Positions 25,121-63,015 of a stretch of 64,000 bases of DNA are shown here, one piece after another (the stretch's first letter is position 1; every line of letters begins with the position of its first letter). This stretch comes from Chrysoperla carnea (Eukaryota > Arthropoda > Insecta > Neuroptera > Chrysopidae): assembly GCF_905475395.1 (NCBI RefSeq), contig NC_058338.1, forward strand, positions 559,001-623,000. Reading direction: 5' to 3'. The notes below the pieces were generated by a model. The model searched no databases and was not told the DNA's origin. It saw nothing but the letters and a program-made list of their open reading frames with translations. The translations under genes and the position numbers were made by a program.

Positions 25121-27310
25121 TTAAGTGTGATATTTTTTATTTAATGGTTGACGATTTGGACGATTTGGACTTTTCTTCATTCGCATTTCGTTATGTAGTT
25201 CCCAACATTTATCTTTTATCCAAGATTTAATTTCATGGTCTGCTACTCTTACAAAATAATCTGCGGATTTACATCCCTTAGCAATGGTTGTTCCAATCGC
25301 ATATACTTTGTTGTTTACTATAAACGGTGTTCCAGAATCACCATCACATATTCCTCCCTGAAATGTATCATTCAAATCCTTGACACAAAACGAATGTTCG
25401 TTCACAAACTTGCCTGTTTCTTCATCACATTGATCAACTGGCACACTTTTCATTTGAATTTGTTGTAACGTGTTTGAGAGAGAGTTAGCGTTCGCTGTCT
25501 GAAATACAAACATCAAGATATACCTACTGAGTGATTCATTTAAATTGAGGCAACTAACTTGAATGGTCACAACTAAGATTTTGGACTTCATGTTTAAAAT
25601 CTTATCAGGGAATGTACCTGGATGCCCTGGTAATAGATGTCAGAAAGAGACATATTTTGCAGTCAATGCTTCAGTTTTTCCTGAAAACACGGATTAAAAC
25701 GACTGCATACTAATTTTCATGAATAAACAAATAAACTTACCTTCCAACCCCAACCAACAACTGTTCCAACTTTATTCGCTTGTTCAAAATCGTCTTCAGT
25801 TGCAAACTTTAAAGGTTGTATGGTTTTGGATCTGCATAGCGGTCTGTTCAGCTAAAACAAAAACAAAAAATTGTTATAAAAATGGCTCATTTTCTTTGAC
25901 TTTCATTGTCCAACACTTCAGTGTTGATTGCTCGATTATCTTCATAAAAGAATACACACAAGAGATAAAGACGCTTGGCAAGAATCCAAAAGACCCAGGT
26001 TCGAATTAAGTATCTTTAACATGTGCTTACCTTCAATAACGCTATGTTATATTGCATGTAGTCCTGATCATAGCTATATTTATCATGAAGAATTCCTCTT
26101 GCAAAGTAAATTTTTTTTGCTCTGGGATCATCACGGTTTGTCACTCCAGCTTTAATGTATGCATTCGTAAATTGTAAAGTTCTCTCCTCCGCGAAATCAT
26201 TATCATCACCATGTTCAAGACATATTGCAGTTGTCAGGATAACAGTTGACGTCAATATGACACCAGTACAACCATATCTGGAGCTTTCAATCCCTTGACC
26301 GTCAGGATTAATTTGAGTTAGAAATACCTAATATTTTCAAAGAAATAAGTTATTACATTTTATGGAGCTGTGCTAATACGAAAGAATGGTCATGAGGGAA
26401 GGTTAAACCATTCTTTTTCCGTTTACTTTTTTACCTAAAATTCGGAGTGCTAAAGTATTCTACCGAGGATAAAAATTAAAGAAAGTTAAATGTTATTTGA
26501 ACGAATGATTGAAGGTTAACAATTTTATTGGTAAAAGGAGTATCTTGTCAAAGGAGTTAATGATTCCCGCCGTTAATGAAAACCGGGGAATTGGCGGGAG
26601 TGCTGACGTGCTAACTGTGCATGCTAATACTTACCACGTATGGAAATTCTTCGATGGAAGCATCTGTTCCCTTAATAATATAAGGTTTATTGCCAACGGC
26701 ATATCCACGATTTTCTTTATAATCACTGTCATTTTCGTCACCATAATTCCCTTTGCCAAATAAGTACAAATTATTATTTAAAATTAAAGTTAATTAATTC
26801 GTTAATTTTACTAGGAATACCGAATCAGACGGGTCAAAATGATTCATTACGTCAGTTAGGTCTTTTTTCCCAACTCATTAGATGTTTCTTGCATTTTTCG
26901 ATTTTGGAACAAATCAAATACTTATATAAGATGTAAATATTTACCATATCCTAAGATGGCCAGATTAGAATTTGACAAATTGAAACTTCCAAAAGGCTCT
27001 TCAGATAAGAGTTTCAATTGTTTTATCGGAGCGTTGTCATGAAAAAGGCTGTACACAATGAAAAGCATAATAGTTTTTGCACTTTCGGTACGCTTTCAAA
27101 GTTCTTAGGAAGTAAGATAACTTTTTTAATCATTCCAATCCCTGATAAAAACTGGTGATCCGTGATAAAAAAACTTTCATATTTCATTTCGTGGTCACTA
27201 AGTCTTAATTTTTTAATAAACAGCAACTTACTTATTTTACCGCTAACGTTTTGAGACGCTAAGATTGTGAATACAATTAATGAAAAGTAAAATTTTCCAT
27301 GCGCAAACAT
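25121..27310 (-). CDS. Secreted serine protease homologue (S1 fold, triad His and Asp replaced)
   Basis: A chymotrypsin-fold protein in five exons: 27,232-27,310 (signal peptide ending near ASQNVSG); one ending at 26,945 whose start (about 27,030-27,090) I could not settle; 26,635-26,750; 26,031-26,327; 25,741-25,851; 25,121-25,498. YIIKGTDASIEEFPYV is the activation-site region. The His-57 motif reads TAIC, so Ile replaces His. The Asp-102 motif reads NIALLK, so Asn replaces Asp. Ser-195 is kept in GDSGTP, and the S1-pocket position 189 is Gly. With two of three triad residues gone, hydrolysis is unlikely; such homologues usually act as cofactors or binding proteins (known for insect SPHs; its role here is inference). 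The tail beyond the domain (CWELHNEMRMKK onward) is basic. Apart from the exon 2 start, splice sites and phases fit well, with a rather weak acceptor at 26,751. Confidence 0.85.
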
Positions 27311-40396: not shown

Positions 40397-43322
40397 TTAA
40401 TATTGAACTAAAATTAAGTTAATTATGAATACAAAGATAATACTGACATGTGTAACTAAATTTGTAGCTCCATTTATGGATCCAATTTGTTGGTCGAAAT
40501 TTTGGTTGTTTGTCTGAAAAATATTTTTAATTAAAATATTAATAAAATAACTTTTTCTAAAAACATTTGATGAACAGAAAAATAATATTGGTGAATCCTT
40601 TTAACTATCCTGAAAGTCAAAGTCAAATACAAGATTTTCGTAAGGACCCGAACCAAAAACATAATTTTTTACGCTTTGTTCAATGATAATCTTTGTAATT
40701 TTGTTTGGTTAAAAAATTTTAGGTACAATTCTTACCTTAACATCTGTTAAAATTTCCTTGAAAAACTCAGCAGTGGCCTTAGGTTTGGCAGGGCGTGACT
40801 CATTCTTGAAATCCGTATGAAATAATCCAAATTTATGTCTACAAAATATTTTCAATTTTAGCGAACTTTTCTTATAAAGAAAAACTTTATAGAATATACT
40901 AACGTGTAACCCATTTCCCATTCGAAATTATCCATTAAACACCAAGCAGTATATGCTAAAACATTACAGCCATGATTAACCACTGCATCGTACACCGCAT
41001 CCAAATGATCCTAAAAAAATCCAATAGAAATTATTTTCTTCTTTAAATATTCCGAAAATTATTTTACCTTATAATAATCAACACACTCATAGTTTTCCAA
41101 CTTATCATGCGAGCTTCCACAACCATTTTCCAAAATTAGAATTTTTGGATTATTGTAAATCTTCTTTAAATAGATCAAAACCAGTTTTAAACCTTCTGCG
41201 TGGTTCTAAAATTACACAATTAACGATTTAAATGATTTAGAAATTAGAACATTCGTGGGAACATAATTTTCCCAGGAAGAGAGAGGTTGCTAAAGTAAGG
41301 TATTTTCATAATCGAAGGCTTCTGTTTCGGAGGATCTATGGTGTTGTTATTTTGTATGTCGAAAGTATGCATTAATTTTAAATTTGTCGGGCAATTAAAA
41401 ACATCCAGATCGATTAAAAGAGTAGCCCAGATTTCTGAAAAGAAAAATAAATTTGTTTTTACCCTTAACCACTCTACGGTTGTGTTTTTCCAAGTCACAT
41501 CATAAACTCCTTTGTAATATCCTAGATCATCTGTAAATGAAGGTATTGGCTGTGGTTCAGATGGTATCCGAGGTTGTTTGTAACTTGTGTAATAATTTAC
41601 ACCCAAAAAATCGTACGCATTACGAATATATTCAATTTCAGCGATTGTCCATTCGGGTAATCTTGATTTCAGGAAACCTTGTTCCATACTTTTATTGGCA
41701 ATCGTTGCCTTTAATATGTCTGGAAAATCTCCGGTACTTGAGTATATTGGATCCGCAAATAATCCATACTGTAGAAAGAATTTTCGATTATAACTTATTT
41801 CCATTTGTATCACAAAAATCCCGTGAAAGTAATAAAATTTGGCCAGAATACTTACAACCATAGTCCGTAGCTTTTCAATCACTTCGATGTCTTCTGTAGA
41901 ATTTGTTAAAGGCTCGTACCAATTGAAACTATAACCAATTCCCATCATGCCTAAAAATTATCAGGAGAGGGTTTACTTATCAACCCATTTGCCAATTAAA
42001 AATTTATTTCCCAAAAACCTTACCTTTATTCTCCGTATCATAATATTTCTTATACAAATGATAGACACGAGCATGCGCCAGAATAACATTCCGTGCGCAT
42101 AAATAATTCGAAATGCCAGATGAGCCATATATTGGAGGCCAATCATTACTCAAATCATGCTGACGACACACATTATCTGGCTCAATAAATGTTACCCAAA
42201 CTTTAACTTTATCGGCAAAATTATCCAAAACAATTCGTGCATAATTCTCAAAATAATCAACAATCAGTTCATTTGTCCATCCACCGAAATCTTGAATATT
42301 TTGTGGAATATCGAAATGATTCATCGACACAATTGGAATTATATTATTCTCTATTAATTTATCGATTAAATTATGATAATATCGAAGGCCAGCGGCGTTA
42401 CCACGTTGCATTGGTATCGGTGCGATTCGAGGCCATGATAATGAAAAGCGATAAAATTGTACACCCAAATATTTAAGCATACTAATATCACGATCCAGAT
42501 TATGATATGAATCACAGCTTACATCAGCATTGGATCCATCAACGACTCGACTTGGATCTTCATGGATAAAATGATCCCATATACTTTCCACTCTGCCTGT
42601 AAAATTGACAAGTTTCTTCAAATAATTATGGTTACAAGATGATGATCTAAAGATCCGTGGAAATTTTGAGGCAGGGGATAATATTCTCACCTGACTCATT
42701 CCATGCTCCCTCAATTTGATTGGCTGATGTAGCAACACCAAATTTTAGTTTATAGTTCTTTGCTAAGTCATGAATTTTCAATCTCGTTTCATTGTAATTT
42801 TGACTCTGTGTTAATCTAAAAAAAATAAAAGAAAATTCCAGCTTATAATATTTAAACTTGGAAACTTGGAGGGGGAGGGGAGGTGATGAATTCCTCTACG
42901 CGCCTAGACTTCAGAACCCTTACACGTTTTCACCATGAAGAAAATTTATCACAGATACTGTTTATGCAATTTAAACATTACCTTACGACGCTTTCCAAAA
43001 AGGAAACATAAAAAAAACTTTAGTTTTTGACGCTTTTTCGATATTTTTAGAGCATGATTTTACATTTGCGTTATGCAAATTGCCTAGTTTAAGATATTTT
43101 TAGAGCATTTTCTAACATTTACGTCATACAGATTGCCTGGTTGACTAGTTGACTAGTCATGTGATAGCCGAACCAATTTAAACTTTTACAGTTTGTGCTT
43201 TTTTATCCGATATCGAGTGATTTTGGAGTCCATTATAAAAATTCTTAGAAATTCAAGAATTAAATTGTTTAAACTTACGTGATGACACAACAAACGAGGA
43301 ATGCTTTACAATAAACTTCCAT
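40397..43322 (-). CDS. GH1-A, beta-glucosidase/myrosinase-like protein, putatively GPI-anchored
   Basis: GH1 (beta/alpha)8-barrel protein of 535 residues. Exons: 43,279-43,322; 42,691-42,815; 42,024-42,596; 41,856-41,950; 41,463-41,768; 41,068-41,205; 40,904-41,010; 40,736-40,838; 40,397-40,513, all GT-AG with matching phases. Exon 1 encodes a signal peptide (CKAFLVCCVIT). Glycone-site marks: SANQIEGAW, NHFDIP (HWDLP in canonical enzymes), acid/base motif TFIEP (Glu kept, preceding Asn replaced by Ile), nucleophile in LENG, and WCLMDNFEW. Both catalytic glutamates are present, so glycoside cleavage is possible, but the missing Asn, which contacts the sugar 2-hydroxyl, and the Phe in place of Trp predict altered substrate use. 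The last exon ends in a hydrophobic run (VSIIFVFIINLILV) after SINGATN, a layout fit for GPI attachment. First gene of the array; next is GH1-B, same strand. Substrate unknown. Confidence 0.93.
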
Positions 43323-44958: not shown

Positions 44959-47900
44959 TTAAATCATAAGATTTTGTGTTAAAATTAAATTGAAAAGTAT
45001 AACTAGCAGGATTACGAAATTGTTTAAATTTCCTAATAAATATCTGAGGGAAGCACTACCATTCATTTGTGGGTCGACATTCGATGGGGGTTGATGTGGA
45101 CTTACTGTTGTCGATGGATTAATAGTCGTCTCATTCTAGAAAAAATAATGCTATATTAATTCTAATGAACGGATCAAGGATCAAGCACGCTTTATTTCAA
45201 ATCTTTGGAAAAAGTTTTTTTTTTTTTTTTTTTAAAGATTTTACCTTTTCATCACTGAGGATCGCGTGGAAAAAGTGAGCTGTTGCTTTTGGTTTTGTAT
45301 GACGTGTTTCACTATCGAAATCAGTTTCAAATAATCCAAAACGTTCCCTAAAATAAACAAAGTTGTTGATCAAAAAATTACAAACGATAAAAACCATCAA
45401 ATTAAATGGAAAAGTGGAAATAGCTTTAAAGGGACCAAAACAGTGCGAGAAACTGAAATACCATAACAAAATAGGCCAGTTTATACTTACGTGTATCCTT
45501 TTTCCCATTCAAAACTATCCATAAGAGTCCACGCACTGTAGCCAATCACATTACATCCTTCATTAACGACAGCATAATAAACGGCATCCAAATGATCCTG
45601 TAGGAATCGAATTTCATTACGTTTATTTATCAAATTTGGTGCAAAAAATGAGCTAAACTCAACTTAATAAATAAAAACTTACCTTTGGGAATTAGGAAGT
45701 TAAATAGCATTGATTCATATGCGAAATTTCGAAATCTGTGTAAATACAGTTTTTCAAGGACTACGGTTCTACTTTTAAGGATAATATAAATTAAAATATA
45801 ATAAAATACCTTAAAATATGAAACACATTCGAGATTTTCCAATGTACTTTCAGCAGTTCCACATCCATTTCCCAAAATCACTACTTTTGGATTATTATAC
45901 ACATTTTTAATATACAATAAAACATTCTTTAACCCTGTAGGATAATTCTGCAAAATAACATTTTAAGAAAATCTTAGCCATACAAAGCATAAATTGTTCG
46001 AAACTGACAATAACCTGATATATCCAAAATTTAGCCATTTAAGTAAAATAATATTAATTATGCTTACCTGCAACAAAGAAATTGATGTTTTGGTCCAATT
46101 TGCATCGAACACCCCTTCACGAATACCCAAATCGTCTTCGTATGATGGAACTGGATAAATTTGCTCCGATGTTTGTGGTAATTGATACGACGTAAAATAT
46201 GTGATACCCATAAAATCGTAGGTATTTCGAATAAATTCAATTTCAGCAATTGTAAATGATGGTAATCGTGAATTACGGAAACCTTGTTCTTTGCTTTTAT
46301 TTGCAATTTGCGATTTTAATAGTTCTGGAAAATCACCGTACTCAGAGTGTATTGGATCGGCTTGAATCCCATACTAAACAATGGAAAACAAATAATTGAC
46401 TGAGTTAGTTGTTAGAATACCATGTCCAGATAGTTTTGATCACGGAATCGTTTATTTTTTTACAAATATAAACAAAATACTCACAAAAAGTTTACGAAAT
46501 CTTTCGACAGATTCAATATCTTCGGTGGAATTTGTTACAGGCTCATACCAATTAAACAATAAGTTTATACCCATAATTCCTGAAATCTCAGTCATAAATT
46601 TAGAAATGCTAAAGTAAAACAAAACTATGGAAATATAAATTTCGAAAAATTTTATCGAAACTTCGAAAAATGATCTTACAAAATTGAACATTAACTCAAT
46701 CATTTAAACGATAAAAAGTTTGGTATTTCCCAAAAATTTGTGCGAGAATTAAAAACAAATTGAATAAATTTTACCTGTATTGTCGGTATCAAATTGACTT
46801 TTATACAATCGATAAACCGTTGCATGAGCCAAAAATAAATTTCGCAAACATAAATAATCCGCTATACCGGATGAACTAATTTCTGGTGGCCAATCATCTG
46901 TACCATAATGTTTATGGCATATCTGTTCCGGTAGATCAAATGTTATCCAATCTTTAACCTTGGATGCGAAATTCTTAAATACAAGTTGAGCATAATTCTC
47001 GAAATATTCGATGATCAATTCGTTCGTCCATCCACCTAATTTATTAAGTAAAAATTAGGTATGTGTGTTCTATGGTGATTTTAAAAAGTCATGTCCTTTT
47101 GGGATTTGACAAAGAAAGTGGTCGATTTCAATATTATAGGACGTTGCATCATGCCCCGGGCGCTCACAAAGGGCGCTAAATTAAGCTCCCTACGCCACTG
47201 TTCTAAATTCAAATAAAATTGAAAGACACTGTGTTCAATTGAAATCCACCGCTTTCTTAGTTAAATCCAGAAAGGGAAATTTTGATAAAACTAACCAAAA
47301 TCCTGAATATTTTGTGGTAAATCGTTATGATACAACGTAATTACCGGTGTAATATCATTTTCAATTAATTTATCGATTAACGAATGATAATAGTTCAAGC
47401 CTTCATCGTTAACCGCAGCATCACGCATCGGTGTGGGTGAAATCCGTGGCCATGATATTGAAAAACGATAAAATTTCACACCCAAATATTTTAACATTTT
47501 TATATCACGATCGATATTATGATACGAATCACAGCTGATGTCACCATTTGATTCATCCATGATTTTCTCTGGATGTGTGTGAACAAATCGATCCCATATA
47601 CTTTCGGTTTTACCTGTAGCAAAAGCGTTATTATTTGGCATTAAAAGATAAATAATTAATTGTAGAAAATTCAATTTCTAACCTGATTCATTCCATGCTC
47701 CTTCTATTTGATACGCGGATGTCGAAACTGCAAATACAACTGAATGTTCATTTTTTAACTTTGTTATTTTTTCTCTTGTTTCGTTATAATTTTGAGCCGT
47801 TGCATTTCTAAAACAGAAAAAAAAACTCATTTAAATTAGGGGGAACAAAAATTGGAGCAAAAAAAAAACGTAAGCTGTATTCGTAGCCGTAAATCGATCA

Positions 47901-48065
47901 TCAAAGTGATTGAAGAGACAATGACAAAGTAACTTGTATTCTGTCTCGCCTAGTTTCAAAGTCATGCGACTTTTTTAAGGCCATTTCTAAATACTTTCTA
48001 AAAATATAAAATCGAACTTACTGCATCAAAACACATAAAATTAAATAAAATACAATTTGGCACAT
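44959..48065 (-). CDS. GH1-B, catalytically dead GH1 homologue, putatively GPI-anchored
   Basis: GH1-fold protein of 557 residues. Exons: 48,022-48,065; 47,683-47,807; 47,296-47,613; 46,775-47,035; 46,485-46,579; 46,068-46,373; 45,810-45,947; 45,491-45,597; 45,245-45,347; 44,959-45,135. Signal peptide in exon 1 (FYLILCVLM). SAYQIEGAW and WTLMDSFEW are conserved, so the barrel and part of the sugar site remain. The acid/base motif reads TFDLP (Glu to Leu) and the nucleophile motif reads LGNG (Glu to Gly, GGA codon), so neither catalytic carboxylate is present. The frame is otherwise intact and the splice sites are good, arguing for a functional pseudoenzyme, such as a sugar-binding receptor or decoy (inference; Klotho proteins are a precedent for GH1 folds lacking catalytic residues). 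The intron 47,036-47,295 is absent from all paralogues. The C-terminus has NGSAS, a spacer, then VILLVILFNLIL, a GPI-signal layout. Confidence 0.92.
45690..45778 (+). mobile_element. MITE-like family M piece in GH1-B intron
   Basis: GTTAAATAGCATTGATTCAT, then GCGAAATTTCGAAATCTGTG, matches the right end of 19,916-20,320. Lies between the exons ending at 45,810 and starting at 45,597. Confidence 0.5.
47143..47202. mobile_element. hAT-like MITE fragment in the GH1-B-specific intron
   Basis: ATCATGCCCCGGGCGCTCAC, AAAGGGCGC and CTACGCCACTG match the MITE at 56,133-56,226; the left terminus is missing. Confidence 0.55.
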
Positions 48066-49735: not shown

Positions 49736-52417
49736 TTATAATTTTATTAAAACCAAATAAATAAGCACTAAATAAAAAATTTTATTTTCTAATTTCGAGG
49801 AGCTGCTTTGGACTTCTTCAGGATTAATAAATGGATCTTTGGAAACCTGGAAAAAATTTATTAAATAAGATTTCTAAAATTTGTACTGAGAACTTTTATT
49901 TTACATACATTTAACCCATCCAAAATTTCTTTAAAGAAGTACGCTGTTGCTTTTGGTTGAGTAGAACGTTTTGCATCAGTAAAATTGGTACGAAATAACC
50001 CATATCGATAGACGTAACCTTCAATCCATTCAAAACTATCCATTAAACTCCAAATGCCATACGATTGTACATTACAGCCTTCATTTACAACCGCATCGTA
50101 AAGTGCATCCAAATGACCCTACAATCAATAATATTCGTAAGTAAACACTTTGACTTTTTGTCCGCACTTTCTCGAATATCATTTAGGCTTCTCGCTTAGC
50201 AAAACGGAGCTCCTAGCCCTAATATACCAGTTCTGCCGTCTTCTTTTTTATCATTTAGATTGCCCTGAGTAAAATTTTAGAACAACTTACCTTAAAATAT
50301 TTCACACAATTGTAGTTGTCCAAAGTATCTCGAGCTGTTGCGCATCCATTTTCCATAATAAGAACTTTTGGATTATTGTACGTATTTTTTATATACAGCA
50401 AAACTTTCTTCAAACCTTCTGGATAATCCTTCAAAATTTACAGACACATTAATAATTCAGCAATAAATTTTGGAACAGTCCTTAAAAAATCCTTACCATT
50501 ATTCGTGGATTTTCTGTTGGTTCCCAATTTGGATCAGGTGGAGCAAAATAATAATTAATGTCATCCAAAAAAGATGGTATTTTAATATTGAATTTTATGT
50601 CTCCTACCGTAATATTCGCGTCTTTTTGATTCCTATAAATTCTATTTGGAGTATAATAATTCAAACCAAAAAAATCCGAAGTATTACGAATGTATTCAAC
50701 TTCATCCTTTGTAAATAAAGTTAATCGTGATTTATGAAATCCTTGCTCTTTACTTTTTTTGGAAACTTTTTCTTTAAAAATTTCTGGATAATCACCATGT
50801 TGCGAAAAAATTGGATCCCAGTAAATTCCACTCTAAAACATAAAAACAAATTTTTTTTTCATTCGTTATGCCATTTCAGACAATTCAGGTAGATTTCAGT
50901 ATAACTGGATTGTGGCTCGTATCAAAGTAAACGTTCATAGTGAACTATGTGATCGGTGGCGTGCCCAAAATATTGTGAGGCGTTCTAATTGTGTTTGCGC
51001 GTTATTGGTTCAGCATCCCTGGTCAAATCATTCTATAGTGCAGTTTTTTTTTAAATATAAGCCTGCTTATGACTGTCACATTGGCCGCTTGACTTTAATT
51101 AGTGAATTTTTCGAGTCCTAAAAAGTGGTACGTATTTTGTGCAAAATTCTATGAGGACATCTTTTAAGCTGACAGATAAAATTAAAAAATGTTGTACCAT
51201 AATGAAATCCAACTCTTTTCTCCGTCGGATCCTTTTTTTGATTATTTTAATTATTTTTTGTTAATGTAAATGAACGACTTACAATAATTTTACGGAACAT
51301 TTGTATAAACTCCAAGTCTTCGGTGGAATTTGACATTGGCTCGAACAAATCTAGTCTTGTAACCAACCCAATAAGACCTTGATTTTTTTCATTATACTTC
51401 TGTTTATATAAATGATAAACTTTAGCATGAGCCATAAATGTATTTCTCAAACATAAATAAACAGCAACTCCTGATTCTTCCTTAGAGGGCGGAAGTGGAT
51501 CAAATCCATATTGGAAAGCACAGGCAATATCGAGCTGATTGATAGTGACCCACACATTCACCTTATCAGCAAAATTATCAAATACAATTCTTGCAAAATG
51601 CACAAAATAATCGATGGTTTCTGCATTTGTCCATCCACCTAAATCGCTCACACTGATTGGCAAATCGAAATGTGATAATGTTACTATTGGTGTGATATTA
51701 TTTGCGATTAATTGATCAATTAAATTGTGATAATACTGTAACGCTTCTTGGCTAACACCATCATGCAATATTGGTGTGGGTAAGAGTCTGGACCATGATA
51801 TTGAGAGGCGATAAAAGTGTACACCCAAAAATTTCAGCATATTTATATCTCGTTCGAGATTATGATATGAATCTACACTAATATCGGCTGTCGAGTGATC
51901 GTGAATTTTTTCTGGATGTTCGTGGGTAAAACGGCTCCACATAGTTTCACCTTTCCCTAACAAGAAAAAAAAATTTTTCGTAAACAAGCGCAAAGTAAAG
52001 TAAATTATAATAATTTTTGATCGATTACCCGATTCATTGCATGCCCCTTCATATTGAAATGCCGATGAGGAGACCCCAAACTTAACATTATATTTTTCTA
52101 TTAGTTCTGCAACTTTTTCTCTTGTTTCTCTGAAAGTTTGAGCGTTGGCTGCTTGTCTAAAGAATATTTTAAAATTAAAATTTGAATTTAGTCGAATTTT
52201 ATCTATTTGAACATTGACGTCTTTTCAAAAGGGTGGGAAAAAGAAAATTACGACATGGACCGAAAATTTCAAGTCATTTAACACATTTATATTTTGTATA
52301 ACGACGCTTAAAAATAGGAATTACTATTGTTTAGCCATTATTGAATAAAAATTGCATAAAAATAAAACTTAAAACTTACGCAACCGTTGCAATACACAAT
52401 AAGAGGTAAAACTTCAT
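49736..52417 (-). CDS. GH1-C, myrosinase-like GH1 protein with Gln acid/base, putatively GPI-anchored
   Basis: GH1 protein of 544 residues. Exons: 52,380-52,417; 52,029-52,156; 51,283-51,956; 50,497-50,832; 50,291-50,428; 49,909-50,118; 49,736-49,846; phases agree throughout. Signal peptide MKFYLLLCIATVA. SAFQYEGAC, SHFDLP, the acid/base motif TINQLD (Gln for Glu), nucleophile in MENG, WSLMDSFEW. Plant myrosinases also carry Gln at the acid/base position and cleave S-glycosides, whose leaving group needs no protonation; that this gene does so is inference. Two introns found in paralogues are missing: the one in the NxGxIG region, which GH1-E keeps, and the one after GYT/GYV, also absent from GH1-E. 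The C-terminus [12 protein letters not shown] followed by FYLVLIYLVLIKL resembles a GPI signal. Closest relative in the window is GH1-E, on the opposite strand. Confidence 0.93.
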
Positions 52418-53551
52418 TTTAAAAAAATAAAATTTTGGTTGGACAGTTTCATGGTCAGACTAAAACAAATTACAAAAATTCTTGGCGGTTAATCATGAAT
52501 TTTTTTGTGCTTGCGTAAGAAGTATTAGGCATAAATTATAATTAAAACTTTGCTTCCTCATCATATAAATTATTAGGAGCTACATGTGCGTAACCGGTCC
52601 TTGCGTAGGGGGGGGGGGTAGGATTGTATCTGTCCACATAAAGTTGAACTTACAATATAGTTTTGCATTTTTTGCTTGTCTCTTTCCAAACAAAATGAAA
52701 AATTTGATGAAGACTCTTGTACTCAACTTTTTGAACCATACTTTTAAATTTTGCTCGTCAATATCCGTAACATTTGGAACAACGAAGTTAAACTTTGAGG
52801 AAAATGCATTGCCAAACTGTATGAGAAAAATTTTCTCGAAGCACTCGGTATTTGCAATGAAGATTCGTTTCTAAATATCTATTAAATGCTATCGCAACTT
52901 TTTAAACTCGAACAAAGAGAAGGAGACTCTCCCTTCCTTGAATGACTCCGACGTACGGGTCTGGTGCGTGGTATTCTACGGGCACATCAATTCAGGGGAT
53001 GGATGGAATAAGAGCGTGAGTTCATAAAAAGTATTTTGAGACAATGTTAATCAAGATTTGTAATATGATATTTTGAAGGAATGTTTTTGGCTTTACCTAA
53101 TTTGGACCCATATTTTCCACTTTTCCAAGACTGTTTGTAAGCCTTTCTTCAATAAATATAAATTGAATACACCGCGGTAATTAAAAAATAATCATTTTGA
53201 GGCAAGATTTGTAGTATTCGACCCGATTCCTCAGTTATACTACATTACTTAATAATTAATGTTAGATAAATTGTAATAAAATTTATTTTCTAATTCTCGA
53301 ATTTTTCATCAAGCCTGGAATTCTTGGATTTTGAAGGCTAGGCTTAGCGGTAATGACTTGGATTTCAAGGAAAAGTACTTAAATTTCTGCTTGCCTGCGC
53401 TTCTGTGTTTTTTACGTTTTCTTATCTTGGTAATGAATCTAATAATTTAATAGTTTTATTATAAAATACAAGCTTGAACAAGAACGATGCTCTTAAGTGT
53501 TCAGAAGAAAAGTCAAACTGATTAAATTAGGGGGAGATCGTAAGAATCTGG
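52418..53551. other. Intergenic, GH1-C to pseudogene D
   Basis: Includes a G9 run at 52,609-52,617 and a flank block shared with 49,035-49,105. Around 53,255-53,340 a T-rich block (TTATTTTCTAATTCTCGA) resembles the end of the last GH1-C exon and its 3' side (49,775-49,810), possibly a decayed last exon of D. No intact gene. Confidence 0.35.
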
Positions 53552-53726
53552 AAGAAAGTCTAGACCCTGATATTGAGAGGCGATAAAAGTGTACACCCAA
53601 AAATTTCAGCATATTTATGTCTCGTTCGAGATTATGATATGAATCTGCACTGTTATCAGCTGTTGAGTGATCGAAAATTTTTTCTGGGTGTTCGTGGGTA
53701 AATTGGCCCCACATTGTTTCACCTAA
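53552..53726 (-). pseudogene. GH1-D, truncated GH1 exon fragment
   Basis: On the minus strand, [35 protein letters not shown] and HFYRLSISGSR match the start of exon 3 of GH1-C nearly residue for residue, with Gly for the conserved Trp after SIS. Similarity stops at 53,726 on the 5' side, just inside the start of the corresponding GH1-C exon, and near 53,552 on the 3' side. No other clear exons flank it. It is a relic of a partial tandem duplication, most like GH1-C and GH1-E. Confidence 0.8.
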
Positions 53727-54692: not shown

Positions 54693-57266
54693 ATGAAATC
54701 GTGCAACGTAAAAATTTTGATTTTATTTTGTATAATAACGTAAGTTTTATTTAATAATTTAAATATGATTTCAAAATCGGTTAAAAAATCAGCGATTTCA
54801 ATCATTTATATTTTCATTCTGTTTAGACACCTCACCTTAGGACAAAGATATAATGAAACAAGGGTAAAAGTTAAGGAACTAATTGAAAATTTCAATATAA
54901 AATTTGGAGTGTCAACATCAGCGGAACAATTCGAAGGGGCATGGAATGAATCAGGTCTGTTAGAAATCTTAAAAACTAAATCCTCTGTGTCACAGTTGAT
55001 TATCTTTATCGTCGCATTTAATTATCAAATTTGCTCACTTTCTCTGATTATTAACTAACTCCGTTAATTTTCGTGCAAACGACTTCTTGCTCAAAAATCA
55101 AACGCTCCTTTTGTTCCTAGGTAAAGGTGAAACAATGTGGTCCCATTTTACTCACGTGCATCCAGAAAAAATTGCCGACCACTCAACAACAGACATTAGT
55201 GCCGATTCATATCATAATCTCGAACGAGATATAAATATGCTGAAGTTTGTGGGTTTACAATTTCATCGATTCTCAATATCATGGTCCAGACTTTTACCCA
55301 CACCAATATTGCATGATGGTGTCAGCCAAGAAGCGTTACAATATTATCACAATTTAATTGATCAATTAATCGCAAATAATATTACACCAATAGTGACGTT
55401 ATCACATCAAGATCTACCAATCGGTGTAAGTGATTTAGGTGGATGGACTAATGCAGTTATTATCGATTATTTTGAGCATTTTGCTAGAATTATATTTGAT
55501 AATTTTGCTGATAAAGTGAAAGTTTGGATTACTATTAATCAACCGGATTTAACTTGCGCCTATCATTATGAGAAGAATATGTTCCCACCTGATATGATGA
55601 ACACAACGGGAGTCGAAACATATTTATGTTTGCGAAATTTATTTCTGGCACATGCTAGAGTCTACCATTTATATAAAGAAAAATATGATGTGGCGAATAC
55701 AGGTAAATTTGATGAGGGAGCAAACAGTTCTCTCACATGAGCCCTTGAGCCAGCTTTTAATTGATGACCTCTCCAAGTTGAGGTCCGTTAACGTCAAAGA
55801 ACTCCTACTGTTCTTAAACAACTCCAAATTGTTCATGGAGTAGTGGCCGGGTATGTTCCCCACCCTTTCTAGAGATTTTGCAAAGAACAATCTTCTAATT
55901 TTTCGACTTTGCTTAAAATTCAGAGTTAACCTCATTTTTACGATTCTAGGTCAAATTGGAATCTTGACAAGAATGGAATGGTTTGAACCGATGTCAAATT
56001 CTACAGAAGACTTAGAATTTATAACAACGTTCCGTAAACTTTTGGTACAAACATTTTTATAAGATAATATCCACGTGTGAAAATTTGCAATGTCCACATA
56101 CACAGTTTCTTATTAATATCATTTTTCCCAAACAGTGGCGTAGTGAGGGAGCAAGAGGGTGTATCATGCCCCGGGCGCTACTCACAAAGGGCGCCATATG
56201 GTCGAGTTAAGTTCGCTACGCCACTTCGAAAAATCTTATTTATACATTATAGTTAAACAAATGTATATAATTTTTTTTAGAATGGAGTTTTTTCTGATCC
56301 AATTTTTTCGGAACATGGGGATTATCCAGAAATTTTAAAAGAAACAGTGGCCAATAAAAGTAAAGAACAAGGATTTCATACATCACGTTTAAAGTTATTT
56401 ACAAAGGATGAAGTTGAATATATTCGTAATACTTCGGACTTTTTCGGTTTCAATTATTATACCCCATTAACGATTGTAAAAAAATCCTCTGAAAATCGTG
56501 ATTTAATAGCGAAATCAAATATTAAAGTTCCATCATTTTTTGATGATATTAATTATTATTTTGGCCCAGCTGATCCAAATTGGGTGCCTACCGAATTTAA
56601 TCGTGTTCACGTAAGGATATTTCTAATTTTGTTTTTTAATTTTCTTTCAATCACAATGAGATTTTTATCCATTTTAAGGACTACCCAGAAGGTTTTAGAA
56701 AAAGTTTAGTTTATGTAAAAAATACATACAATAATCCAAAAATTTTTATAATGGAAAATGGTTGTGGAACTATGCGAGATACTTTGGACAATTACAATTG
56801 TGTGAAATATTTTCAGGTATTGACCCAAATTTCTAAGAGACATATGACTTGAGTTGAGCTTTGGATGTTATTTGTTTCAGGGACATTTGAATGCACTTTA
56901 CGATGCGGTCGTTAAAGATGGCTGCAATGTTCAATCGTATGGCATCTGGAGTCTATTGGATGGTTTTGAATGGGCCGACGGTTACACTATTCGATTTGGA
57001 TTGTTTCATACAAATTTTACAGATGAAAAACGATCCACTCAACCAAAAGCAACTGCGCACTTCTTTAAAGAAGTTTTGGAAGGTTTAAATGTATGTAAAC
57101 ATTTGTTAGTAAAAATTTTAAAAATCCTATTTAATTATTTTTTTAATTCCTCCAGGTTTTCAAAGATCCATTTATTATTTCTGAAGAAGTCCAAAGCAGT
57201 TCCTCGAAATTAGAAAGTTATATTTTGAATTTATTACTCATTATTTTGGTTTTAATAAAATTTTAA
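54693..57266 (+). CDS. GH1-E, myrosinase-like GH1 protein with Gln acid/base, putatively GPI-anchored
   Basis: GH1 protein of 546 residues, the only plus-strand member. Exons: 54,693-54,739; 54,827-54,954; 55,121-55,702; 55,950-56,044; 56,281-56,610; 56,679-56,816; 56,881-57,090; 57,156-57,266. I start at 54,693 ([16 protein letters not shown]): donor GTAAGT at 54,740 and acceptor TTTAG at 54,826 restore the exon 1/2 split and phase of the paralogues, whereas the longer open frame from 54,765 runs through the intron. [15 protein letters not shown], acid/base motif TINQP (Gln for Glu), nucleophile in [13 protein letters not shown]. The Gln mirrors plant myrosinases; the substrate is unknown. 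Small repeats sit in the introns: a LINE end in 55,703-55,949 and a hAT-like MITE in 56,045-56,280. The C-terminus QSSSSKLES then [13 protein letters not shown] has a GPI-signal layout. The gene is an inverted close relative of GH1-C. Confidence 0.93.
55717..55865 (+). mobile_element. LINE 3' remnant in GH1-E intron
   Basis: Reads [20 protein letters not shown] then [12 protein letters not shown] and a stop, matching the piece at 59,215-59,350 in the same order. Only the last 50 or so codons and the start of the 3' end remain. Confidence 0.55.
56133..56226 (+). mobile_element. hAT-like MITE in GH1-E intron
   Basis: Terminal CAGTGGCGTAG and inverted CTACGCCACTT bound a 93-base GC-richer unit with CATGCCCCGGGCGC inside. 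CAGTGGCGTA-type ends are usual in hAT-derived MITEs. I see no clear 8-base target duplication. Confidence 0.6.
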
Positions 57267-58673: not shown

Positions 58674-61600
58674 TTATAAAATAAAAAATTTTACGATTAT
58701 AAAACTACAAATATTAATAATAAATAGACTACTTTTTAGACTGGAACTTGACGATTGACGATTTTGGATTAATAGTTCTGATGGTGCTAATAATTTTACA
58801 CCACTTTTTCGGCGAGTCTCCTGGAAATAAATTAAAATAAGTTAATTTTTTGTCGCAAAATTCGTCAGCCAGTCATCCTTTGTACGAGTTTTAACAATAA
58901 GGACACTGGTACAACTTTAGTTTGAGTTTTTTTTAAACTGGAATAAATCCGTCTGCTCCGTCACAAGCTGCTCCTGAATGAGGATATCTTAAAAAGACCA
59001 ATCTTAAGTAAATTAAGGAACACACACTTGTGGTACTACGAGACAGATATGATCTGGGTACAATCGCAGGCATTCCGAAGATCTTATATCGCTTCAAAGG
59101 ATCTCTTTAAGCAAAATTATCACGGTTACTACAGGACACTAGCTAGGCCACAGGTACCTTGAAGGACTGTGCTTTCCTGTACATCACGATTATGGAATGA
59201 GCCCATCAAGTGAGCCCATCGCGAAGATAGACTCACTTGAGCCAGGCTTTTTTCTGACGACCTCTCCAATCGGAAGTCCGTTGACATCAAAGCACTCTTG
59301 CTGTTCTTAAACAGCTCCAAATGGTTCATGGATAAGTGGCCGAGGGTCGGTCCCTTTTCTGTGTCCCAACGGACAATTATAAAAAGTAACTAGATCGTTA
59401 TCCAGCGGCCAAATAATTAGGGTATTATATAAAAATTTCGACAAAAAGTTGGCATGAGCCAAGAAGGCCTTTTTTTTATTTTTTTCGACATGCTGTACTC
59501 GACGTCTTTCGACATGGTTTTTACTCGACATGCTATAAATTTTATCCAATATCCTAGTCCCTAGATAGGAAATCCTTGCTAAATATAAATGAATGGAAAA
59601 TAATTTACATATTTGGAGTTTTGGCCCAAAAAATTTTGTTCGAGGATTTCATCTTGACAGTTGCTACTTTAGAAATTTCAAAGTATTGACGACCTACCTT
59701 AGAATATTGATTTATTTCTTGATAAAATTTGCCAGATTTTTTGATACTCGTAGATCGTTTAGGATCCGTGAAATTGGTATGATATAATCCAAATGAAATC
59801 CTAAAATAAAATTCCAAAATTAAATCAAGATTACAACGATTACTTGAACAGACATACGTGTAACCAGTATCCCATTCAAAACTATCCATTAAACTCCAAG
59901 CCACAAATCCACGAACATTAATGCCCTCTTCCGTGACAGCTTCATGGATTACATTAATATGATCCTTATAATATTTAATCACTTGGGTCTGATCGACTTC
60001 ATTGTCTTTTTCTCCTGTGCATCCAATTTCGGTAATAATTGTTAATGGATTATTAAAGTGTTTTCGAACATAATCTAAAGCGGCTTTTAATCCTTCGGGA
60101 ACTATCTGAAATTAAAATCAAGTTTATACACAATTCTATATAACGTTAGTCTGATTTGAAAGAGGTCCCTCGGTGATAATGATGAAGCAAATTCCTTACC
60201 TGTAGCCATTCGGTTGATGTTTGCACCCAATTTGGATCAACATGTAACGTAACCCGCATATCATCCATAAACGTGGGATCAGTTACAACGACCTCTTGGT
60301 TTGTTCGTGCTAATCTGGACGTATAATAATTTATACCCAAAAAGTCTGCACTGCCCTTAATATATTCAATTTCTTCTTTAGTAAATTCTGGTAAACGAGA
60401 TTTTTTTAAACCTTGTAATTGCGATACCATTGCAACATTTTCCTTCACAATTTCAGAATAATCACCTTTTGGTCCGAAAATTGGATTTACAGCCCATCCA
60501 AGCTATAATACAAGCAAAATATTAATTGTGAACTTTGAATCTAGATCCATTTGAGGTCTATTAAGCTAACTGAAGCTTTCGAAATCGTTTAACGGGTGTT
60601 TTTTTCGAGTAGAGCTTAATAAGACCTAGCGAACTTACATCTCCATTCCCTCGAATACTCGCATCAATATCCTCTTGATCCTGAGAATACGGCAATTTGA
60701 AGATACAACTGGAAACATAGCCAACAATCCCATTTTGTTGTGCCTTAAATTCATTCTGATACAAATGATAAGCACGCCCATGCGCTTTCAATAAATTATG
60801 CATGCATAAATAATTACTAACGCCGGGAACATAGTCCTCGGGAGCATACGAAACTCCCCCATAGCCCAATTCACAAATATGATATGGTTCATTGATCGTT
60901 ACCCACATTTGAACTTTTTGACCAAAATGTTTGAATAGTGTTCGAGCATATTTTTCAAAATATGGAATAATCAATTCATTTTGCCATCCACCCAATGTAT
61001 GGAGTGTTTTTGGTAAATCCCAATGGTATATTGTCACCATTGGCGTGATATTTTTCGCTATTAACGCATCGAATAACTTATGGTAATATTGTAGTCCTTT
61101 CTCATTTAATTTTTCGGTTAAACCACCGTCGGGCATAATTCGTGTCCATGATATTGAAATTCGATAATAATCAACATTTAGTGTATCGATCATTTTTAAA
61201 TCACGCTCTAAATTATTGTACGAATCACAAGCAATGTCTCCGTTACTTTGATCTGCCATTCGATGTGGATATTTATGCGTGTACTCGTCCCACATACTTT
61301 CCCCTTTTCCTGGAATATTGAAAATTAGTTTATTACTTCAAAGATCAATCATGAAAGGATCCTCGACAACAACAGATTCTGTGGACGTTATAAAATTGAT
61401 AATCGAAAAAAATAGACCCCGAAAAATTGTTGTAAATTTATTTTGCCTTCAAATTTTTGGTTTTGTAATAATTCTTGGAAATATTTTTCCCAACAAAAAA
61501 AAAAAAGTTGAATGATGAAATACTTCATAAAATTGAGTTTTTTCTCCGTCTCAAGGGCAAATTTGATTAATTGTTAACGGTAATATAAAACTTCTTACAA

Positions 61601-63015
61601 AAGACTATCATAAAAACAATTTTTTCTATTATCCTAAACAAGTGATGAGTTTAATCAAATGAATTCTCGCAGGCGTCTCTTCCACAAAATTAATTTATAT
61701 TGAAAAACTTGAACTATTTTCTACCGTATTTTTAGAAATTATCGATTGGTTAAAACTTCGGAAATTTTACGAATTCGCTCTTTTCATGTTACGAAATACT
61801 ATTGGTTTCAAGATACCCAGTTGTAGAAATTCAATAAAATTCAAAAAATTTCGACCAAATTTTTTGCTCATTGGTTAATTCCATACAAATTTTCTTACAG
61901 GCACGTCCTAACGGATATTTATTCTCTGAGCAATTAAACCGATGTAATTGTAGTTAAATTTTTATATATTTTAAAATAAATTACCATCTTGATTCCAACC
62001 GCCTTCGATTTGATATGCTGATGTGGCTACACCCCAAAAGAAGTTATGTTCGGTTATCAGCTCTTGTACTTGTGTTTTCCAATCTTCGGCTGAGCCATAA
62101 CTAAGTACAGAAATTATTTTTATTACTAAAAACACTTTTAGTACAATTAAACCAAATATAGCTATAAGACGAAAAGTAATTTTTCGATATCTGGAATAAT
62201 TTTAAAAATATCGAAAATTAACAATTTTGTTTAATTATGTAACTTTCGCGGAAACCAAGATTCATGATCAAACTTTAAAATAAGGTACAAATAATTTCAA
62301 CCACAAGTCTAAAGTTGCCTTGAGGCTCATACTACCTTAATATGAAAATTCTCAGCCGGTCTTAGTAACAATTGGATCCATTCTGTAATTATATAATAAC
62401 TATTTACACATGAAGTATGTAAACAATTATTTGCATGCAATAATTAATGGTCTTGTTATCTAATTATTATTTATATAAAATGTAATTTTAATTTGTCAAC
62501 AAGAAATTCGCTTGTTGTACTTCCGTGCAGTCAACTGCAGTTAATGCATCCCAAATATTCGAATTCCAGTCGCCTTAAGTATAGTTAAAGTAATATTTAT
62601 AATTAATTATAATTAACTATGAATTTAAAACTAATATTTTTAATTAATTACTAATACAGTTATTTGTATTTTCAAATAATTTTTATCTTGTTGTATATTT
62701 TTCATTTTTTCAAATCGAAATTTATATCAAAAAAATAAAAGCAAATCTGATTAAAACAGTAAGTTATATTAAATACGAAGATACGATAGGAACATAGTTC
62801 CAACCGGGTGCTCAACAACATCTCTTGTTTTTTTGTTTACAACTTTATGTCGTTGGAAACTACATATTTGAAATTGTTCGTACAACTATTTTCAATCACA
62901 TGTCATTAAAAATACCTTAAAAACGATATGAAAAATAAATGGAAATTTATCTTTACCTGAAATATCCCAAAAAATAATATAAATTCCATAAAAAAATTGT
63001 ATTAAAACTTTTCAT
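58674..63015 (-). CDS. GH1-F, canonical GH1 beta-glucosidase/myrosinase-like enzyme, putatively GPI-anchored
   Basis: GH1 enzyme of 548 residues. Exons: 62,957-63,015; 61,985-62,100; 60,639-61,309; 60,200-60,502; 59,858-60,105; 59,698-59,800; 58,674-58,820, all phases consistent. I start at 63,015 because only that ATG gives the phase needed at the next exon; an ATG at 62,989 is out of phase. Signal peptide in exon 1 (FLWNLYYFLGYF). SAYQIEGGW, YHWDLP, acid/base TINEP, nucleophile in ITEIG, WSLMDSFEW: every key GH1 residue is in place, unlike A, B, C and E, so this is the one gene here I expect to be a standard retaining glycosidase. Natural substrate unknown. The last exon (NRQSSSSSLKS then LFIINICSFIIV) again looks like a GPI signal. 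Introns are longer than in the others; the last one holds a LINE remnant and the first a piece of a TTAA-flanked element. Confidence 0.93.
58920..59410 (+). mobile_element. LINE 3' remnant in last GH1-F intron
   Basis: Plus strand reads DDLSNRKSVDIKALLLFLNS then SKWFMDKWPRVGPFSVSQ, antisense to GH1-F. It is related to 55,717-55,865. The upstream part (59,030-59,160) is GC-richer with several stops and is probably the eroded preceding region; its limits are uncertain. Confidence 0.5.
62160..62350 (-). mobile_element. Partial TTAA-type element in first GH1-F intron
   Basis: TATAAGACGAAAAGTAATTT, TTTTCGATATCTGG, AATTTTGTTTAATTATGTAA and a final ACTACCTTAA follow the left half and the end of 16,883-17,529. 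Confidence 0.5.

Follow-up and report, generated by a model that had tools for sequence, protein, structure and literature searches.

A lacewing glycoside hydrolase family 1 protein that lacks both catalytic glutamates and shows purifying selection along its branch

Pseudoglycosidases are an established class of proteins, with the Klothos in glycoside hydrolase family 1 (GH1) and the chitinase-like proteins in GH18 (PMC7828330). The GH1 pseudoenzymes named in the consulted part of that review are the vertebrate Klothos, which consist of tandem GH1-like repeats (PMC7828330). In beta-Klotho, the old sugar pocket holds a sugar-mimicking motif of FGF21 at the 'catalytic' E693 (PMC8465397, PMC7828330). 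Chitinase-like pseudoenzymes of the YKL-39 type bind sugars without cutting them (PMC7828330). Insect beta-glucosidases of the GH1 family are described as having two Glu residues (PMC5078806), and classical plant myrosinases, GH1 members in which the acid/base Glu is replaced, carry a Glu and a Gln, with the nucleophile Glu retained (PMC8836197). For the insect beta-glucosidase Sf-beta-gly of Spodoptera (5cg0), the consulted part of the study by Tamaki et al. (PMC5148593) distinguishes a catalysis-related set of residues (E187, E399, R97, Y331 and N329) and a glycone-binding set (Q39, H142, N186, W444, E451 and W452). Mutants of the catalysis residues lose kcat, and the Y331F change lowers the Km for NP-beta-glucoside (PMC5148593).

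The window, i.e. the whole 64,000-nucleotide stretch of Chrysoperla carnea DNA analysed here (NCBI RefSeq assembly GCF_905475395.1, contig NC_058338.1, positions 559,001 to 623,000), harbours the GH1 loci A, B, C, E and F and the relic D (Table 1). For GH1-B, the first-pass annotation had proposed ten exons and 557 codons, and spliced alignment returned the identical gene, with 9 GT-AG introns, 1671 coding bases followed by TAA and 557 open codons free of internal stops. The query was a protein assembled from ORF frames, which makes this alignment a check of splice sites and frame and not of exon choice; the latter is backed by intron positions common to the paralogues, as all introns except the third match at least one paralogue in position (the first to within one alignment column). 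Stops, frameshifts or lost splice sites, which would mark a pseudogene, were found in none of the 10 exons and 9 introns of the model. The Pfam Glyco_hydro_1 profile (PF00232) matches residues 38-498 with a score of 415 bits and is the sole Pfam family found at E-values up to 0.001. The best PDB matches are beta-glucosidases, and identity to the termite enzyme NkBgl (3ahz) reaches 42.6% over 453 columns. GH1-B belongs by descent to GH1.

Klotho chains rank among the better PDB hits of GH1-B, and a parallel with Klotho had been drawn from the outset. It holds as a functional analogy, since both would be GH1 members without enzymatic activity on the cell surface, as far as can be predicted for GH1-B from its sequence. 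As a family assignment it fails, because GH1-B has a single GH1 domain (residues 38-498) and not two in tandem. GH1-B also has neither Glu, whereas beta-Klotho retains its 'catalytic' E693 (PMC8465397). In a 17-row tree built with 16 lacewing models and NkBgl, the row nearest to GH1-B is that of its neighbour GH1-A.

The third intron of GH1-B is absent from the other 15 GH1 models. Its donor and acceptor sites score at the 24th and 12th percentiles, respectively, among the 92 introns of the other models, and another GH1-B intron, at a position shared with paralogues, scores equally low (11th and 10th percentiles). Once intron 3 is removed, the frame of GH1-A is restored. With its G/GT junction, this intron is a candidate intron gain. 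Its membership of a repeat family is unsupported: a search that skips very common words returned, beyond the intron itself, one partial match of 61 bases at 81%.

Table 1. Features of the lacewing GH1 genes. Coordinates are window positions unless a contig is given.
Feature	Coordinates	Strand	Description	Basis
GH1-B CDS	44959..48065	-	557 aa + TAA	spliced alignment; Pfam Glyco_hydro_1 E 3.9e-124
GH1-B exons 1-5	48065-48022, 47807-47683, 47613-47296, 47035-46775, 46579-46485	-		spliced alignment
GH1-B exons 6-10	46373-46068, 45947-45810, 45597-45491, 45347-45245, 45135-44959	-		spliced alignment
GH1-B exon 1	48022..48065	-	start codon and hydrophobic, signal-peptide-like segment	spliced alignment, by eye
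GH1-B intron 3	47036-47295	-	260 bp; phase 1, in the codon of the first Gly of FGGW	spliced alignment
GH1-B Gln48	47708..47710	-	CAA, in SAYQIEG; glycone-binding, retained	
GH1-B Asp196	46935..46937	-	GAT; replaces glycone-binding Asn (Sf N186)	
GH1-B Leu197	46932..46934	-	CTA, in TFDLP; acid/base position, Glu in NkBgl and Sf-beta-gly (E187)	
GH1-B Thr339	46200..46202	-	ACA; replaces catalysis-related Asn (Sf N329)	
GH1-B Phe341	46194..46196	-	TTT; replaces catalysis-related Tyr (Sf Y331)	
GH1-B Gly409	45870..45872	-	GGA, in ILGNG; nucleophile position, Glu in 15/15 other lacewing GH1 models	
GH1-B FEW	45505..45513	-	Phe-Glu-Trp; glycone-binding Glu and Trp retained	
GH1-B C-terminal 34 residues	44962..45063	-	NGSAS...LTQNLMI; GPI-signal-like or membrane tail	hydropathy, letters
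GH1-A	40397..42805	-	sister gene, both catalytic Glu (TFIEP, LENG); first exon modelled without confidence	
GH1-A C-terminal exon	40513-40397	-		
GH1-C	49736..52417	-	Gln at acid/base (TINQL), nucleophile retained	last exon end read by eye
GH1-D	53538..53720	-	single-exon GH1 relic; example of decay within the cluster	
GH1-E	54693..57090	+	Gln at acid/base (TINQP), nucleophile retained	
GH1-E further 3' exon	near 57150-57260	+	exon with tail	read by eye
GH1-F	59698..62100	-	canonical NEP and Glu nucleophile (core exons only)	
GH1-G	C1:79130054-79134423		Gln acid/base, Glu nucleophile	
GH1-H	C6:10250133-10262892		Gln acid/base, Glu nucleophile	

The reading of a Leu at the acid/base position and a Gly at the nucleophile position was borne out: the codons are CTA and GGA, and Leu197 and Gly409 stand opposite the two catalytic Glu residues of NkBgl (174 and 383 in the numbering of the construct, E193 and E402 in that of the literature). 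An active retaining beta-glucosidase has Glu at both positions, and retaining GH1 hydrolysis is not expected without either of them. The Gln/Glu pair of classical myrosinases, present in the lacewing paralogues C, E, G and H, is not that of GH1-B either, whose nucleophile Glu is gone. It is extremely improbable that one or both codons reflect sequencing or assembly errors; they are known from a single assembly, but they are substitutions rather than homopolymer indels, and in a gene that is otherwise clean five active-site residues are changed at once.

When the two Sf-beta-gly sets were mapped by motif onto the lacewing models, the changes in GH1-B proved to be unevenly placed. Four of its five catalysis-related residues are changed (E187L, E399G, Y331F and N329T), only R97 being retained, and the glycone set reads Q H D W E W, with five of six residues retained and Asp for N186. 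The other lacewing models have at most two changes in the catalysis set (gene G) and at most one in the glycone set (A, L014 and L015). In comparison, 3 of the 86 other near-invariant columns, defined as identical in at least 15 of the other 16 rows, are changed in GH1-B. The excess of losses in the catalysis set over these columns is pronounced (Fisher test, p 6.4e-5), while the glycone set does not differ significantly from them (p 0.24), and the direct contrast between the two sets (p 0.067) suggests a difference; the changed residues of GH1-B were already known when the two sets were adopted. At the columns invariant in all other rows, GH1-B has 3 changes out of 66, compared with 0 to 4 in the other 16 rows; its number of changes is ordinary, and they are striking by their place alone. 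Relative to the insect beta-glucosidases, GH1-B shares the glycone residues Q, H, W, E and W and differs by the loss of both Glu residues and of the tuning Tyr and Asn and by an anchor-like C-terminal tail. The Phe of the Y331F mutant is present in GH1-B.

The first-pass annotation had deduced a maintained sugar-binding fold from the SAYQIEG and FEW motifs. Taken alone, these say little, since the Gln of the former is found in all 16 lacewing GH1 models and FEW in 14; as stand-alone evidence they are weak. The exact heptapeptide SAYQIEG is found in four of the 16 models (B, F, L013 and L016), and within the clade of six genes described below GH1-B alone has it. A maintained sugar-binding fold is argued for more strongly by comparison with the catalysis residues, which are lost. 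A nucleophile Glu-to-Gly replacement is also the change made by glycosynthase engineers, and together with a largely intact glycone site it might point to a natural glycosynthase-like or transferase enzyme with altered catalysis. We consider this very unlikely, because glycosynthases require an intact acid/base residue and an activated donor, and in GH1-B the acid/base is Leu and Tyr331 and Asn329 are gone as well.

We searched the whole C. carnea assembly (559,487,470 bases in 337 contigs) for GH1 genes, and the 66 exon-by-exon matches collected correspond to at least 16 genes, which is the number modelled, and one relic. Outside the window lie eight further genes besides G (contig C1, 79.13 Mb), H (C6, 10.25 Mb) and I (C3, 64.91 Mb). 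Of the 16 models, GH1-B alone lacks the nucleophile Glu, which the other 15 have; at the acid/base position 11 models have Glu, four have Gln (C, E, G and H) and GH1-B has Leu. In the tree, A and B are sisters (99/97) and are joined by G, E, C and H, which form one clade, in a six-gene clade (100/99), with F and I next outside. Three of the rows used in the alignment, the tree and the column counts (L011, L015 and L017) were combined from two aligner outputs and differ from a later re-made model; the codon models described below exclude them. The exons of two and three bases close to the beginning of the G and H models are aligner artefacts outside the core.

The N-E-P of the T-x-N-E-P motif is intact in all ten lacewing models outside the six-gene clade and in none within it, where it reads IEP in A, DLP in B, NQL in C, NQP in E, NQS in G and NQP in H. 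As the motif is altered in all six genes, GH1-B represents the most extreme case of a shift that affects the whole clade. The four Gln genes depart from the description of insect beta-glucosidases as two-Glu enzymes in the consulted part of that study (PMC5078806). GH1-A has both Glu residues (window 42024-42596) yet carries Ile for the glycone-binding Asn before the acid/base residue, and it may be atypical. In the relic GH1-D, the Trp of the SISW motif is replaced by Gly, and no matching GH1 exons were found beside it.

Selection was analysed with codon models of eight genes over 468 codon columns, with one fixed topology and a single rate across sites. A single omega for all eight genes was estimated at 0.113. 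Freeing the GH1-B branch gave 0.097 (2dlnL 0.36 against one omega), and fixing it at 1 cost 43.1. With A and B both free, omega was 0.108 for B and 0.077 for A, the difference between them not being significant (0.59); for GH1-B, 2dlnL was then 4.29 at 0.06, 4.34 at 0.20 and 28.2 at 1, setting limits of about 0.06-0.19 (2dlnL below 3.84, read between grid points). Neutral evolution of the branch (omega 1) is rejected whether A is free (28.2) or not (43.1). Gene G alone of the six tested departs from the common omega, with a lower value (2dlnL 9.16). The GH1-B estimate spans the whole time since the A/B split, any enzyme phase included, and is rough because of the length of the branch (about 3.8 neutral changes per codon). 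If the rate of A is taken to represent constraint, the neutral share of the branch is 3% by the point estimate and up to about 12% by the upper limit. GH1-B was under purifying selection over its branch as a whole, so that it combines lost catalytic residues with retained constraint, one of the marks of a pseudoglycosidase, the constraint being that of the whole branch.

At the 203 columns conserved in at least five of C, E, G, H, F and I, 17 changes are private to A and 17 to B, and the two genes both differ at 29; their tree branches are 0.37 each, and six core Cys residues and four sequons are common to both. Neither the codon models nor the private-change counts of A and B revealed a raised rate or a relaxed omega on the GH1-B branch.

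These data bear on whether GH1-B is in early decay, having lost catalysis recently, with selection ended and the frame open for lack of time. The real relic GH1-D in the same tandem cluster and the unique intron 3 with its weak splice sites would fit such a course, and the consulted part of a family survey reads partial insect GH1s that lack important sites as cases of pseudogenization (PMC9500737). Decay is nevertheless unlikely, given 1671 bases without stop or frameshift, the equal conservation of GH1-A and GH1-B elsewhere and the low joint probability that GH1-B remained intact while the named codons were hit neutrally. The latter is at most 6.5e-3 for one codon (k=1), 1.6e-4 for two and 6.9e-6 for three; these bounds, from a simple formula, consider substitutions only, with about 130 lethal site-equivalents and indels excluded, and depend on the codons chosen, k being set by how many changes may predate the loss. 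The weakest bound (k=1) is the relevant one if the changes at the acid/base, Asn186 and Asn329 arose during an enzyme phase, which is possible because paralogues have Gln (C, E, G and H), Ile (A) or Ser (G).

The signal peptide and C-terminal anchor signal announced for GH1-B were judged from hydropathy and by eye. A signal-peptide-like start and a hydrophobic C-terminus, with a small-residue stretch, a spacer and a hydrophobic end, are indeed present, but the tail is not specific to this protein. Hydrophobic C-termini are common to the six clade genes, with best 15-residue Kyte-Doolittle means of 2.11-2.72; apart from that of GH1-B, the tails were identified by eye in open frames. A candidate hydrophobic C-terminal exon (L009:7074-7217, behind the AG at L009:7074; Kyte-Doolittle 2.66) also follows the core of gene I, which lies outside the clade and probably carries an anchor signal like those of the six clade genes. 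If this tail is real, the anchor would predate the six-gene clade. Two of the remaining models were scanned, F and L016, with nothing convincing in the former and no such tail in the latter. The anchor is hence no novelty of GH1-B and seems to be older than its loss of catalysis; common to all six clade genes, it appears to be inherited and is no evidence for a new receptor role. Insects also have GH18 chitinase-like pseudoenzymes, the IDGFs, of a different family and with different ligands; we know of no GH18 chitinase-like pseudoenzyme with a membrane tail.

GH1 proteins are often dimeric, and GH1-B might be a regulatory or scaffolding pseudoenzyme that pairs with and tunes a paralogue from the cluster, either active or of the Gln type, its own pocket being incidental. 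The tandem array of paralogues bearing the same anchor-like tail and the constraint without catalysis fit this idea, which leaves the retention of the glycone site alongside the loss of catalysis unexplained; we consider it possible, with rather low probability.

On balance, we incline towards GH1-B being a secreted and probably membrane-anchored GH1 pseudoenzyme kept by selection, most likely to bind a beta-glucoside without cleaving it. Its predicted (beta/alpha)8 barrel would be kept, as would the floor of the glycone pocket, with the machinery of retaining hydrolysis dismantled, and a beta-glucoside or an imitator would be held uncleaved at the cell surface. Binding is favoured because the glycone floor is preserved, the Tyr has changed to Phe and the rest of the protein is constrained. 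GH1-B is well supported as a pseudoenzyme, but not yet as a receptor. GH1-B might act as a lectin, a glucoside sink or a co-receptor, and perhaps works like the Klothos or the chitinase-like proteins. It would have originated within a clade of six lacewing GH1 proteins of this kind, which drifted from ordinary O-glucosidase chemistry. According to the consulted part of one study, C. carnea larvae encounter glucosinolate products of plant origin in their prey (PMC6934381), which makes glucosides plausible ligands of GH1-B. More speculatively, and with a fairly small chance of being right, the six membrane-anchored proteins may have left O-glucosidase chemistry together, with GH1-B as the end point, an independent single-domain counterpart of Klotho or a glucoside-sensing lectin; the ligands could then be plant or prey glucosides, and the paralogues may have converged on the Gln/Glu pair of myrosinases.

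Within the known class of pseudoglycosidases, GH1-B would be a single-domain insect case, with close paralogues that have both Glu residues or one of them. A search by title or abstract start, with most subscription journals outside its coverage, returned no maintained insect GH1 protein lacking both Glu residues. The consulted part of one family survey attributes partial GH1s that have lost sites to pseudogenization (PMC9500737), and no comparable case was found in the consulted part of a second survey (PMC12295287). The Glu/Glu, Gln/Glu and Leu/Gly series within one gene clade makes the passage from enzyme to binder directly testable.

The C, E, G and H genes share the Gln/Glu pair of classical plant myrosinases. 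Gene H (L018) has an intron of 4634 bases (C6:10250577-10255210) within what is a single exon in A, C, E and G. L014 and L015, GH1 genes of another clade, have the glycone-site changes E451Q and W452F. Elsewhere in the window, an ORF at 25121-25591 carries a GDSG motif that presumably resembles the end of an S1 serine protease.
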